A stretch of 64,000 nucleotides of DNA from Dehalococcoidia bacterium (GTDB lineage Bacteria; Chloroflexota; Dehalococcoidia; GIF9; AB-539-J10), in contig JAUWYX010000003.1 of the NCBI GenBank assembly GCA_030615625.1, positions 1-64,000 of the forward strand, written 5' to 3'. Of the stretch, positions 53,381 through 59,200 are shown piece after piece (position 1 is the stretch's first letter; every line of letters begins with the position of its first letter). A program made the translations under genes and the position numbers. Under the pieces are notes generated by a model. It was not told where the DNA came from. It saw only the letters and a list, made by a program, of their open reading frames with translations, and searched no databases.

Positions 53381-54406
53381 TTATGGAGATGGACGAATAG
53401 GGGACAAAGACTTTTCTAACATGTCGGATAGTGTACGTTGCCCCTTCCGACCACCAAATGCACCAAGTTGCTTCCCGGAAAAATCGATAACTTCTGAACC
53501 TGTTTCAGTTGGTACCTGAAGCTTAGGTAAATCTTTTAGTAGATCTCTCATCGTAGACATAGTAAAGCTGTTTCTAATTCTGCAGTGGATAAGTACCTTT
53601 GGCATGATTAAAAGAACTGCAGCGACGCCAAGAGTCTTACACAAAACATACTTTCTACTAGCCCAAGCATTAGGGAATAAATCCCTCAGCACCAAAAAAT
53701 AGTCTTTTAATATTTTTATCTGCTCGCCAACAGGATAATCCTTCATAATAGCGTGTTGTAGGAGTCTCCTAAGTTCACTAATAAACGCTGCTTGGGAGAT
53801 TATTCCCTTTCCTACACCAAGCATTTTTATCTGACCCTTCCACGGCGAATCATCGTCTTCGTTCAAGCTTTTTACAATTTCGTGTGCTCTTTCATCTAAA
53901 TACTCAGCATCTTTAGTTAGGTCAATGAGGTCATAAATTAGGGATGGACTTACTCCCATTTGCGTTGAATTAATAACCTTAAATATAGTCGCTTGGTCGG
54001 CGGCAGCTAAACCTAAGTATGCGGCGACAAGTAAATCAAATTCCTTTCCCTCGCTGCGTTCAAAACCATATAACCTGTGCTGCCCATCAATAATCCATGC
54101 AACACCCGGCTCTCTTGGGATTATCATTGTTCCACGGTTACCATCGGCAGGCTCGAAGCGAGCCTTTTTTGGGTCTAGGTTAAGAATTATGCTATTTGGG
54201 AAAGTAGCTCTAGGTTTCTTTATATACTCTCCCACTTCCATTAATCTTTTAGAGCTTAGATATCTCTGATAACCTTGCGGATTTGTAATCTCTCTTCTAC
54301 TGACGTATGCTATTTCCCGCAATGTCTTGGAATCTATCACAAAAGCATAGAATTCTTGTCCACCTTGCTGAACTTTGGTGCAGTCTTTTCTAATTTCTGC
54401 TGGCAT
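53381..54406 (-). CDS. DGQHR-domain protein (DndB-related)
   Basis: This 341-residue protein has the eponymous motif in WIIDGQHRLYGFE (about 106-118), preceded by a region with YQRYLSSKRLMEVGEYIKKP and followed by a long helical part. DGQHR proteins include DndB of DNA phosphorothioation systems and proteins near deazapurine DNA modification and phage-defence loci. No dnd or dpd modification genes are here; the only partner is the HNH gene, whose stop lies two bases upstream and which supplies the ribosome site GGAGGTGG. A defence or DNA-modification-sensing role is inferred. Confidence 0.75.
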   Translation of the reverse strand: MPAEIRKDCTKVQQGGQEFYAFVIDSKTLREIAYVSRREITNPQGYQRYLSSKRLMEVGEYIKKPRATFPNSIILNLDPKKARFEPADGNRGTMIIPREPGVAWIIDGQHRLYGFERSEGKEFDLLVAAYLGLAAADQATIFKVINSTQMGVSPSLIYDLIDLTKDAEYLDERAHEIVKSLNEDDDSPWKGQIKMLGVGKGIISQAAFISELRRLLQHAIMKDYPVGEQIKILKDYFLVLRDLFPNAWASRKYVLCKTLGVAAVLLIMPKVLIHCRIRNSFTMSTMRDLLKDLPKLQVPTETGSEVIDFSGKQLGAFGGRKGQRTLSDMLEKSLSPIRPSP

Positions 54407-54408
54407 GT

Positions 54409-54888
54409 TTAACCACCTCCTTCAAAACATTTATTTGATTTTCCTATATTACATTCTGTGCATAAAGTCTGGAGGTTATCAGCAACCGTCGGTCCTCCCC
54501 AATCCCACGGTAGGATATGGTCTACTTCCAGTTCTACATTTGGCGCCTTCTTGCCACATCTTTGACAAATAGACTTATCCCGTATTAGTACTTGATACCT
54601 TAAAGATGGGGGGATGTCTTCTCTTGTCTCAGAAGGATCCCGAACAAATTTGTACCAATAATCCACATCTTCATACTTCCATTCATGCTTTGTCATCTGC
54701 TCTAGAAATTTCCAATATCGCTCAAAGGACTTCCCCTCACGAAACCATATCTCGTTCGGCGTCAACAAAGATTTTACTCTATTTTTTAATTCAGTTTCTG
54801 TTCCTTCCAAGAATTCAACATAGTCTATTCCTGCTAAAGAACATAAGTGCCTTATTCTTTCTATGGATTTTACCTCTTTTTCATTCAT
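54409..54888 (-). CDS. HNH endonuclease
   Basis: This ~159-residue protein has a C-terminal HNH domain. CQRCGKK supplies a zinc CxxC, then LEVDHILPWDWGGPTVADN (catalytic His in VDHI, Asn in ADN), then LCTECNIGK with the second CxxC. The N-terminal ~90 residues are helical and unassigned. It is directly coupled to the DGQHR gene, which suggests a two-gene system with a nuclease effector. A TTG 21 bases upstream of ATG 54888 is possible; neither has a strong ribosome site. Confidence 0.82.
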   Translation of the reverse strand: MNEKEVKSIERIRHLCSLAGIDYVEFLEGTETELKNRVKSLLTPNEIWFREGKSFERYWKFLEQMTKHEWKYEDVDYWYKFVRDPSETREDIPPSLRYQVLIRDKSICQRCGKKAPNVELEVDHILPWDWGGPTVADNLQTLCTECNIGKSNKCFEGGG

Positions 54889-55031
54889 CGTTACACTTGC
54901 AGTCGCCAAGCAAAATTTTATCTAACTTTAGTATATACGAAATTTAGCTTTTTGGTCAGTAGTCCATCCGACGAGTAATGGGCGCAGCCTCCTGCACCAA
55001 GATAGCAATGCCATTAGGGCAAGCGCTGTTG

Positions 55032-55037
55032 TATAAT
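55032..55037 (+). promoter_or_regulatory. Candidate -10 box of the DUF763 operon
   Basis: A perfect TATAAT lies 17 bases before the start codon in the divergent gap to the HNH gene. The -35 region (near 55009) is poor. Confidence 0.35.
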
Positions 55038-55053
55038 ATACTTGGAGCAGGAG

Positions 55054-56139
55054 ATGTCTAGCTCGGGACAGAGGACGGGGATTGCTAATTTGCCTTTGCA
55101 TTATGGCAAGGTGCCGCCGTGGCTGTTCGGGCGAATGTCCCAGCTTGCCCGGGAGATTACCATTGTTACGGTAACTGAGTTTGGCTCTGCGGAGATGCTG
55201 CGCCGTCTTTCCGACCCCTTCTGGTTTCAGGCTTTCGGCTGTGTCCTGGGCTATGACTGGCATTCCAGCGGCGTCACCACCACCGTCTGCGGCGCATTAA
55301 AAGAAGGAATGCGAGGGCTAGAAAAAGAGCTTGGCTTATTTGTGGCCGGTGGCAAGGGCAGGACCTCGCGGAAAACCCCTGCCGAGATAGAAAACACCGG
55401 GTATCTGCTAAAGGTAAATCCGTCGTCTCTGGTTTATGCCAGCCGAATGTCGGCCAAGGTTGATAGTTCTGCACTTCAGGATGGCTATCAGCTCTATCAC
55501 CACAGCTTCTTCTTTACCAAAGACGGCTCCTGGGCAGTTATCCAGCAAGGTATGAATGAAGTTAACCGCTATGCGCGCCGCTACCACTGGCTGGGGGAGA
55601 AAGTCAGCGATTTTGTCTGCGAGCCCGAGGCGGCTATCTGTTCCCAGGGCAAGGGGGAGGCATTGAATCTGGTGGCTTTAGAAAGTGCAAAGGTGAGGGA
55701 TGTCATTGCCAAGGTCGCTGCCGAAGAGAAGCCAGATAAAATTGTAACCCAACTAAATCGGCTGAAGACCTTAAACCTGCCTCAGCGACCTTCTGTCAGC
55801 CTGGAAGATATTCACCCTGACAGGCTGAGCAAGATTTTCCTCACTGCCTATGAACATAAACCCGAAAACTTTGAATCACTGCTAGCCCTTGAGGGCGTAG
55901 GAGCCAAAACACTCCGCGCCTTAAGTCTTATTTCAGAGCTAGTTTATGAGACACCAGTCAGCCTGCGAGACCCGGCAAGCTACAGCTTTGCCCATGGCGG
56001 CAAAGATGGCCATCCTTATCCTGTGGACAGGAAGACCTACGATAGCAGCATCCAGTTCCTGGCACAGGCGGTGGAAAAGGCCAAAATCGGAGACAGAGAG
56101 AAGCTCGAAGCCTTCAGGCGCCTGAGAGCCTGGCAGTGA
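55054..56139 (+). CDS. DUF763 protein
   Basis: This 361-residue protein of a mostly archaeal family is of unknown function. The N-terminal half is strongly conserved: TGIANLPLHYGKVPPWLFGRM (about 8-28), RRLSDPFWFQAFGCVLGYDWHSSGVTT, and VAGGKGRTSRKTPAEIE. The C-terminal part contains ALEGVGAKTLRALSLI, a helix-hairpin-helix pattern that usually contacts DNA, then FAHGGKDGHPYPVDRKTYD. ATG 55054 has GGAGCAGGAG upstream. The next gene, 13 bases on, is a RecB/Cas4-type nuclease, so a DNA repair or defence complex is plausible. Confidence 0.8.
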   Translation: MSSSGQRTGIANLPLHYGKVPPWLFGRMSQLAREITIVTVTEFGSAEMLRRLSDPFWFQAFGCVLGYDWHSSGVTTTVCGALKEGMRGLEKELGLFVAGGKGRTSRKTPAEIENTGYLLKVNPSSLVYASRMSAKVDSSALQDGYQLYHHSFFFTKDGSWAVIQQGMNEVNRYARRYHWLGEKVSDFVCEPEAAICSQGKGEALNLVALESAKVRDVIAKVAAEEKPDKIVTQLNRLKTLNLPQRPSVSLEDIHPDRLSKIFLTAYEHKPENFESLLALEGVGAKTLRALSLISELVYETPVSLRDPASYSFAHGGKDGHPYPVDRKTYDSSIQFLAQAVEKAKIGDREKLEAFRRLRAWQ

Positions 56140-56152
56140 AAGGGGTTGAAAA

Positions 56153-57478
56153 GTGAGTGACTTTGACATCGCATCTTACGTTTCCCATATTGAGGCGAAC
56201 CGTTCGGTCAAGGATGCTTTAATGCAAAGCTTGAAGACGCGCCGACCTCCATATCGCATCTCCGTAACTGACTTACTTAACCTCAAACAGGCTTACTTCA
56301 GGAGAAAGTATCCCGAAATCGTTCCGCCTCTGGAGAAACAGCAGCTTATGTGGGCTGGCACCGGCTTTCACAAGACCTTCGGCTCAGCCGTATCCAGCGA
56401 AGAATACCTGGAGCAATTCGTAGAAGCCGAGGGCATTGTCGGTAAGGTTGATATCTACGAAAAGATTCCGGTGGAGGTTAAAACAACCTCCACGCCTATA
56501 GGCACGAAGGATTTATTGAAATACAGGCCAACTTATATCGAGCAGCTTGGCATGTACTGTGCTATGGTCAATACCCACGAGGGAGAAATTATCATCTATC
56601 AGCGCCAGGGAGAGGAATCGCCCTCAACTTCCCCTCTGCTTGTCTATCACGTTACTTTCCCGGACCTGGAAGCAATTCGAGAGGAAATGCGGCGGAGACG
56701 AGACCTCCTGGTGCAAGCACTCATTTCCAACGAGCCCAGCAATCTGCCCGTTTGCCCATGGTTCAACAAGCAGTGTGATTATTCCCAGGTATGCGACTGC
56801 CAGACTACATCAGTCCCAGCATCGCATGAGATAGCTGAGTTAGCAGGGGAAATTTATGTCGATAGCACAACTTGCGAGCAACTCCTCAGCAAAATGGCTG
56901 GGACTCAACCATCCCAACTGTTTGGCATCAACGATATTGTTTTCCCCCGCAAAGCATATTTTGAGCGCCTTAAGTTGAGTGAAGGAGTTCGGGAGGAAAA
57001 GGCAGAGTATCTTCGTTCCATGGATGAGCGTGGCTTTCTCGATGCACTCCGCGATTCATTACGCTACGGTGCCCCAGGCGAAGCGCAGAGGATTCCCGTG
57101 AAGCATGCGCCACTAGCCGACCTGGTCCAAATCTGGCAGAACTTGCCCACCATCCTGCGCGACCCAAAATTTTCTTCACTGGTGGAAAGAGAACGTTTGC
57201 CCAGGGCATTCCCTCATTACTTCCTCCGGCTGGGATTTGATTGTGCCTTAACAGAGAACACAAAAGGCAGGCTGCTGCTCTACTATGTTAGAGTTCCCAG
57301 AGAGGATGCCAAACTGATGGTCTATGATGTAAACTTCAGGAATTTGAACGCTGTTAAAGCTGAAGCATTACGCCGGCTTGAGCTTTTGGAAAAGGCGACA
57401 TCACCACTGCAGCTTCCCAAATGCCCTTCATGGATGTGCTCTTACTGCGACTACAGGCTTGAATGTGGCGAAGCTTAG
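56153..57478 (+). CDS. Tandem Cas4/RecB-like PD-(D/E)XK nuclease
   Basis: This 441-residue protein is built from two related halves. Half one has a complete nuclease core: His73, Asp100 (GKVD), Glu108-x-Lys110 (VEVK) and QLGMY (131-135), then a Cys-rich end (CPWFNKQCDYSQVCDC, about 203-218). Half two begins with the same pattern (GINDIVFPRKAYFERL versus ISVTDLLNLKQAYFRRK) and ends with CPSWMCSYCDYRLEC, but the ExK residues are missing, so it is probably inactive. The Cys clusters may hold [4Fe-4S] clusters as in Cas4. GTG start. No cas1, cas2 or CRISPR repeats are present. Confidence 0.78.
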   Translation: MSDFDIASYVSHIEANRSVKDALMQSLKTRRPPYRISVTDLLNLKQAYFRRKYPEIVPPLEKQQLMWAGTGFHKTFGSAVSSEEYLEQFVEAEGIVGKVDIYEKIPVEVKTTSTPIGTKDLLKYRPTYIEQLGMYCAMVNTHEGEIIIYQRQGEESPSTSPLLVYHVTFPDLEAIREEMRRRRDLLVQALISNEPSNLPVCPWFNKQCDYSQVCDCQTTSVPASHEIAELAGEIYVDSTTCEQLLSKMAGTQPSQLFGINDIVFPRKAYFERLKLSEGVREEKAEYLRSMDERGFLDALRDSLRYGAPGEAQRIPVKHAPLADLVQIWQNLPTILRDPKFSSLVERERLPRAFPHYFLRLGFDCALTENTKGRLLLYYVRVPREDAKLMVYDVNFRNLNAVKAEALRRLELLEKATSPLQLPKCPSWMCSYCDYRLECGEA

Positions 57479-57576: not shown

Positions 57577-58071
57577 ATGAATTGGTTAGACATAGTCATA
57601 ATAGTTGTTGCAGTTTTACTGGGTATTGTGGGCCTGCGGCAAGGAATTATCAAGACAGTATTTGGTATTGCTGGGTTAATAGGTGGCATAGTTTTAGCCG
57701 GGCGTTATTACGACGAGCTTGCGGCAGTGCTTTCTTCCAGCGGTGCTACCTGGGTCAACATAGCTGCCTATGCCATCATCTTAATAGCTACTTTAATTGT
57801 GGCTGGTGTGATTGGCCGACTCGTAGCCAAGCTGGTTCACCTCGTCCTGCTTGGTTGGCTGGATAGGCTTGTGGGCTGTGTCCTCGGCGTCTTTATAGGA
57901 GGCCTGTTATGTGCTGCCTTTCTCGCTATTGTAGTTAAGTATTACCCGGGCACGGAGGCAGTTATTAGTCAATCGGGATTAGCCAAATTCTTGATGGAAG
58001 GATTCCCCTTGTTATTAGCACTTCTGCCTGGGGAATTTGATTTCATCCGCGACTTCTTTATTACGAGCTAG
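57577..58071 (+). CDS. cvpA: CvpA-family membrane protein
   Basis: This 164-residue protein has four hydrophobic segments. The N-terminal WLDIVIIVVAVLLGIVGLRQGIIK and the LGWLDRLVGCVLGVFIGGLL segment are hallmarks of the colicin V production family, which affects envelope functions in other bacteria. GGAGAGGTGA is close to the ATG. Single gene, converging with trxA. Confidence 0.85.
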   Translation: MNWLDIVIIVVAVLLGIVGLRQGIIKTVFGIAGLIGGIVLAGRYYDELAAVLSSSGATWVNIAAYAIILIATLIVAGVIGRLVAKLVHLVLLGWLDRLVGCVLGVFIGGLLCAAFLAIVVKYYPGTEAVISQSGLAKFLMEGFPLLLALLPGEFDFIRDFFITS

Positions 58072-58079
58072 CGTATAAT

Positions 58080-58406
58080 TTACTCCCCAAGAACCTCATC
58101 TAATACCTTTTTGAGTTCCTTCTTAGGCTTGTAGCCCATAATTTGCTGAACAGGCTGACCGCCTTTAAATACGAGCATAGTGGGAATGGCGGCTATTCCG
58201 TACTTGGCAGCCAAAGGACCATTCGCATCCACATCTACTTTAGCGAAGTCTATCTTACCAGTATATTCTTTCGCTAATTCCTCCAGAATAGGAGCGGTAG
58301 CCAGGCAAGGACCACACCATTGTGCCCAGAAATCTACCACAACTGGCGACTTCGATTGCACAACAACGTTTTGAAAGTTATCTTCACCTACTATTGATTG
58401 TATCAT
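58080..58406 (-). CDS. trxA: Thioredoxin
   Basis: This 108-residue thioredoxin has the redox site WAQWCGPC and the cis-Pro in AAIPTMLVF. The Trp-Ala-Gln-Trp variant replaces the usual WAEW. It is the last gene of the dnaJ-HTH-tatD-trxA run, 17 bases after tatD. Confidence 0.95.
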   Translation of the reverse strand: MIQSIVGEDNFQNVVVQSKSPVVVDFWAQWCGPCLATAPILEELAKEYTGKIDFAKVDVDANGPLAAKYGIAAIPTMLVFKGGQPVQQIMGYKPKKELKKVLDEVLGE

Positions 58407-58423
58407 GGAATTGACCTCCTTAC

Positions 58424-59200
58424 TTAAAATGCTATATCTAAAGAAAAAAAGTTAATGGCATTTCTCGTTGTCTGTTCAGCAATTGTAGCTTCAGCAATTC
58501 CTTTAAGTTGGGACACGGCCTCCAGGCCTCTTAAAATATCAGCGGGCCTGGACTCATAACGTGCTGCCCTTCCATAAGTGACAGGGCAATCTGTCTCCAG
58601 AAGTAATCTCTTCAAAGGTGCTTCTTTGATTGCCCTTCTATGCTCTTCATGATACTCCGCAGCTGGCGTGGCAGAAACAAAATAGCCACCATCAATTATA
58701 TCCTTAAGAACACTGGAAAAGCCAGTGAACCAATGAAAAACAGCTTTATCCATGCTGACATCCTGAATCAGGTGTAGTGCATCCTTCCAGGCATATCTGC
58801 TGTGAATTATCGCTGGCTTAGCATATTCCTTAGCTATATTCAGAAGCCGACCAAGAACTTCTTCCTGCAATTCCTTGGACGCTACCTTCAACACCCTCTT
58901 GTCATAGTCCAGACCTATTTCACCAACAGCAATCGCTGAAGCAATATTTTGCTCAATAAATCGCAAATTATCATCTATCCCAAAAGTTCCAAGATTAGCT
59001 AGTTCCCAGGGATGTAAGCCTAAAGCAGGATAGACAAAACGGCGATGTTTTTGCGATATTTCCAATGTTTTTATGTTCGATTGGTGGTTCGACCCCACAG
59101 CTACTATAGCAATAACGCCTGCTTTTTTAGCTTCCTCGAGCATCAAATCGAGGTTTTTTAGTTCGTCAAGATGGGCATGAGTATCGATGAGCTTGTACAC
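58424..59200 (-). CDS. tatD: TatD-family metal-dependent DNase
   Basis: This 258-residue amidohydrolase-like nuclease has IDTHAHLDE (metal His), VGEIGLDYDK, IIHSRYAW, FHWFTG and ETDCPVTYG, the ordered TatD motifs. It starts at GTG, sharing bases with the stop of the preceding gene (TAGTG). Confidence 0.9.
   Translation of the reverse strand: MYKLIDTHAHLDELKNLDLMLEEAKKAGVIAIVAVGSNHQSNIKTLEISQKHRRFVYPALGLHPWELANLGTFGIDDNLRFIEQNIASAIAVGEIGLDYDKRVLKVASKELQEEVLGRLLNIAKEYAKPAIIHSRYAWKDALHLIQDVSMDKAVFHWFTGFSSVLKDIIDGGYFVSATPAAEYHEEHRRAIKEAPLKRLLLETDCPVTYGRAARYESRPADILRGLEAVSQLKGIAEATIAEQTTRNAINFFSLDIAF

Follow-up and report, generated by a model that had tools for sequence, protein, structure and literature searches.

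Introduction

In RecBCD-type enzymes, the active nuclease domain of RecB pairs with a catalytically dead domain in RecC. AddB, a protein of about 950-1150 aa, combines a helicase-like region with a C-terminal nuclease of the PDDEXK_1 type (PF12705). Both Cas4 and AddB hold an iron-sulfur staple that uses an N-terminal fourth cysteine, which is present in all Cas4/Csa1 proteins (PMC3466216), and Cas4 also occurs outside CRISPR in the form of solo-Cas4 (PMC5704561).

Here, a locus from a Dehalococcoidia bacterium was analyzed in which a gene of the DUF763 family is followed by a gene for a tandem PD-(D/E)XK nuclease (Table 1). It is located in the window, i.e., the whole stretch of 64,000 nucleotides under study. 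An earlier note on this DNA had interpreted the two genes as a possible DNA end-processing machine outside CRISPR, made up of a DUF763 protein and a nuclease with one active and one inactive half. The part of this interpretation concerning the tandem nuclease stood up to the analysis, whereas a machine that includes DUF763 was not supported.

Table 1. Features of the DUF763-nuclease locus, with positions in the window.
Feature	Position	Strand	Basis
DGQHR / DpdB-like protein, hotspot cargo	53381..54406	-	TIGR03187 190 bits
HNH endonuclease, hotspot cargo	54409..54909	-	PF01844 E 6.4e-14
Repeat unit of a motif (~40 bp), the DUF763 promoter region and the first 19 codons	54918..55110	+	tandem copies in relatives
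DUF763 protein, 361 aa, HhH-like region aa 269-289	55054..56139	+	PF05559 447 bits; AlphaFold2 model
Tandem PD-(D/E)XK nuclease, 441 aa, GTG start	56153..57478	+	PDDEXK_1 33 bits; invariant residues in 28 homologues
Nuclease first half, predicted active	56153..56827	+	conserved residues; omega mostly about 0.05-0.12
First-half residues	H73 (56369), D100 (56450), E108 (56474), K110 (56480), Q131 (56543)	+	
First-half cysteines	Cys 201/208/214/216		
Nuclease second half, predicted catalytically dead	56828..57475	+	homology to first half; omega mostly about 0.08-0.18
Second-half cysteines, kept	Cys 424/429/432/438		
CvpA-family protein	57577..58071	+	PF02674 E 8e-28; synteny
Thioredoxin and TatD, conserved housekeeping flank	58080..59200	-	names by sequence resemblance; synteny

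Architecture and conservation of the tandem nuclease

The nuclease matches PDDEXK_1 (PF12705) with an E-value of 7.2e-8 and 33.1 bits, above the Pfam gathering cut-off of 22 bits. Its two-half structure is a true duplication, as the earlier note had assumed: the halves align end to end with 24% identity (BLASTP E 8e-16), and when compared as profiles of 28 homologues they match over 214 columns (hhalign probability 99.6%, E 2.6e-23). The catalytic residues assigned to the first half are retained, with D100, E108, K110 and Q131 being invariant in all 28 homologues, including a 25%-identical paralogue, and H73 being kept in 27 of them. The D, ExK and Q motif residues of PDDEXK_1 are thus found in the first half in 28/28 cases, whereas the second half is without them; the positions aligned to the catalytic residues are occupied there by non-catalytic ones, in line with the proposed loss of ExK. 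On these sequence grounds, nuclease activity is predicted for the first domain. The dead half is nevertheless under purifying selection, since its omega values are well below 1 (Table 1). A single-sequence AlphaFold2 model of the nuclease reached a pLDDT of 33.

The Cys cluster said to be kept was found in its C-terminal part: C201/C208/C216 and C424/C432/C438 occur in 28/28 homologues, C214 in 27/28 and C429 in 26/28. The position of the N-terminal fourth cysteine holds N43 in the first half and F264 in the second (each 27/28) and thus no cysteine. Since this residue is absent from both halves, the presence of an Fe-S cluster in the nuclease is uncertain.

With Cas4 (TIGR00372/PF01930), the nuclease shares the RecB-like PD-(D/E)XK residues and the C-terminal cysteines, and with solo-Cas4 also the occurrence outside CRISPR. 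It differs from Cas4 in consisting of two fused copies, one of them dead, and in lacking the N-terminal cysteine of all Cas4/Csa1 proteins (PMC3466216), so that the set of one N-terminal and three C-terminal cysteines is incomplete. Furthermore, it scores 17.1 bits against TIGR00372, below the cut-off of 65, and is not associated with cas1/cas2, which likewise applies to solo-Cas4. The PDDEXK_1 domain is common to the nuclease and AddB or RecBCD-type nucleases; however, the helicase-like part of AddB is missing and the protein is composed of two nuclease-like halves only. Its active/inactive pair recalls RecB and the dead domain of RecC, with the two halves here being a duplication within one chain. 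No Cas1 was found in the window genome and no cas genes were found nearby, which, together with the invariant catalytic residues and the constraint on the dead half, bears out the description as an active/dead AddB/Cas4-like tandem outside CRISPR.

Distribution and proposed role of the nuclease

The nuclease was detected in Dehalococcoidia only. It was present in 10 of 294 genomes of the class (one being a fragment) and in none of the other classes of the phylum sample. Its carriers nearly always belong to one family, that of the window genome; outside this family, G270 has a nuclease of 42% identity and lacks DUF763.

The reading we favor, and consider reasonably probable, is that of a stand-alone AddB/Cas4-like (PDDEXK_1) nuclease of DNA ends that is independent of DUF763 and has kept a dead second domain. 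The first PD-(D/E)XK domain would cut DNA, presumably at its ends, via H73-D100-E108-K110-Q131, and the duplicated dead domain, which has a cysteine cluster of its own, might act as a partner that provides structure or binds DNA. In one Dehalococcoidia family the gene would have entered the locus between DUF763 and cvpA. In most relatives it would be expressed independently, and its product would work without DUF763 and outside CRISPR.

Insertion hotspot at the 5' end of DUF763

SXT at prfC is a known case of tandem modules located at one gene and accompanied by repeats of the gene end. The same arrangement is found in the ssrA genomic islands of Dehalococcoides, with tandem modules and repeats of the end of ssrA (PMC3146451). 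The 5' end of DUF763 is likewise an insertion hotspot, in this case for defence-like modules (window 53381-55110; L051 1325-2895; L174 562-4923; L048 7009-7068). The modules are small and differ between relatives: in the window the cargo consists of the HNH and DGQHR genes, and elsewhere of genes for a Type ISP RM enzyme, a UvrD helicase, a GmrSD-like protein, methylases, DUF4062-TPR proteins or a ParE toxin. A repeat unit of ~190 bp, comprising the motif, the promoter region and the first 19 codons of DUF763, is present in three tandem copies in G654, in two in G237 and in two in L067/G642 (one degenerate), and copies of it mark the module borders. Stranded copies in G654 and G237 stop at codon 19, and a DUF763 stub in G134 one codon later. 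The pattern looks as if modules had repeatedly entered DUF763 at its 5' end, with the gene restored each time. Two features set the hotspot apart from the ssrA islands and SXT: its repeat is made up of a promoter plus the 5' codons of a protein-coding gene, and in the hotspot modules scanned no recombinase or integrase was recognised.

Additional copies of 5' ends were observed at other positions. In G252, which belongs to another family, 35 bp that exactly repeat codons 4-15 of DUF763 (L056 7335-7369) lie directly after folD and 1.1 kb upstream of the full DUF763 gene, representing an independent example of 5'-end duplication. At the locus of the window family, a copy of the RtcA 5' end precedes ABC transporter genes in G665 (L175 6583-6657), and a copy of the CvpA 5' end is present in G237 (L051 5543-5577). 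When genes in general were checked for upstream copies of their 5' ends, 6 out of 1243 ORFs had one at E<=1e-8, including two DUF763 genes, and 5'-end copies showed no excess over 3'-end copies on the window's own contig.

The nuclease might itself be a defence gene that lies beside this hotspot and degrades incoming DNA. This is the main rival explanation, since the 25%-identical paralogue in G097 (L046 1378-3515) adjoins a 225-aa Cas4-like ORF and an Eco57I-type restriction-modification gene and is part of an RM-like island. The varied defence-like cargo on the other side of DUF763 and the narrow, patchy distribution of the nuclease are also consistent with such a role. However, the nuclease keeps its place behind DUF763 in 8 genera, in contrast to the hotspot cargo, no match to it was obtained in viral contigs, plasmids or phages, and its best PADLOC matches, DruK and Cas4, are weak (E about 3e-4). 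A function in defence appears rather unlikely.

Occurrence of AddB in the family

Among the 52 genomes of the family, 2 contain both the nuclease and an AddB-like protein, 27 the nuclease only, 11 AddB only and 12 neither. This near-exclusion (Fisher p 0.001) is a lead only, because the test ignores shared ancestry, and shared ancestry alone may account for the pattern. One of the AddB-like proteins is encoded in an AddB-AddA operon. A PDDEXK_1 search of the window's own genome was negative but of limited sensitivity, since it missed the window nuclease itself; the same type of search readily found AddB in 13 relatives. It is conceivable, but in our view quite doubtful, that the nuclease took on DNA-end resection in Dehalococcoidia devoid of AddAB, as a single-chain counterpart of RecB/RecC that is possibly helped by DUF763.

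DUF763 and its pairing with the nuclease

The assignment of the upstream gene to DUF763 was confirmed by a full-length match of its product to PF05559 (E 4.9e-134, 447 bits; cut-off 35.5 bits). The protein has the same conserved residues as the family across phyla, with no difference noted (e.g., D68-W-H-S-S-G, V136-D137, Q142, Q164-Q165-G166, A174-R-R-Y-x-W and G315-G-K-D), and these residues suggest an enzyme or a nucleic-acid binder. The helix-hairpin-helix (HhH) that had been placed at its end corresponds to a match at aa 269-289, which is sub-threshold in Pfam (E 0.018). An AlphaFold2 model built from 62 sequences (pLDDT 82.7, pTM 0.82) had no Foldseek match in the PDB at E<=0.001 (best E 0.33, TM 0.14), and profile-based comparison with solved structures yielded nothing usable for either DUF763 or the nuclease.

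Within the class Dehalococcoidia, 57 of 294 genomes contain DUF763. In the wider genome collection it occurs in at least 589 stretches, spread over many bacterial phyla, and it is also present on rhizobial plasmids and in Sulfolobus acidocaldarius. No recurring neighbor was seen when the surroundings of DUF763 were compared among 80 genomes from many phyla and on the rhizobial plasmids. On a Shinella plasmid (L045), ligD is located ~2.6 kb downstream of DUF763, with a second ligD and Ku beyond it; the two other annotated plasmid regions inspected show no Ku/LigD near DUF763.

If DUF763 and the nuclease formed one DNA end-processing machine, as the earlier note had suggested, the HhH of DUF763 might bind or remodel DNA and load the nuclease. 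The described gap of 13 bases between the two genes (56140-56152) is correct and, with the same orientation, is shared by the window, G177 and G662, which would fit such a machine. Of the 52 genomes of the family, 29 contain the nuclease and 29 a whole or partial DUF763 gene. The two are positively associated (Fisher p 0.011), and in the 21 genomes with both they are always adjacent (21/21). For these tallies, L066, L067 and L069, which by length and coordinates apparently equal contigs of G646, G642 and G659, were counted once.

However, co-occurrence did not extend across lineages: only 3 of 80 fetched DUF763 loci contain the nuclease, all three from the window's own family, as opposed to 0 of 77 loci outside it, covering many phyla with flanks of up to 10 kb on each side. 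Moreover, each gene is lost alone. The nuclease stays intact in genomes whose DUF763 is reduced to a stub of 20 codons (G134), truncated (G665, G647, G667) or absent (G112, G658), and DUF763 is intact without the nuclease in G650, G651, G669 and G670, with cvpA directly downstream of it. As some genomes have DUF763 directly beside cvpA, the gene order suggests that the nuclease was inserted later, into an older block. The order in the family is RtcA, (ABC transporter), DUF763, nuclease, CvpA, thioredoxin and TatD, and since the cvpA-trx-tatD block is equally syntenic, adjacency by itself says little about a shared function. In the other relatives the gap between the two genes measures 44-207 bp, or 897 bp in one lineage, and in most relatives a TATAAT-like, promoter-like sequence lies just upstream of the nuclease start, from which the nuclease would be transcribed independently. 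The gene trees of DUF763 and the nuclease were weakly supported.

All in all, a common machine seems very unlikely. The two genes probably do not form one, because they are neighbors in one family only and each survives without the other; their coupling is a family-level neighborhood and not a conserved system. The adjacency in 21/21 genomes and the positive association still leave room for a functional link. Finally, decay of the second half, which would leave the protein as a lingering single-domain nuclease, is hardly credible. This half does evolve somewhat faster (omega about 1.5-2x that of the first half in most pairs), but at values well below 1, and all 28 homologues, some with as little as 25% identity, have kept the full length and the cysteines.

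Conclusion

The window contains a fused active/dead AddB/Cas4-like nuclease outside CRISPR, for which none of the curated models used describes more than PDDEXK_1, next to a member of DUF763. No function is known for this family, which is very conserved in bacteria and archaea, and no match to a solved fold was detected. With its hotspot, the 5' end of DUF763 offers a further lead, separate and open to testing, on the movement of defence genes in these uncultured bacteria. Should the near-exclusion between the nuclease and AddAB hold up once phylogeny is taken into account, it would point to an alternative route of DNA-end processing.
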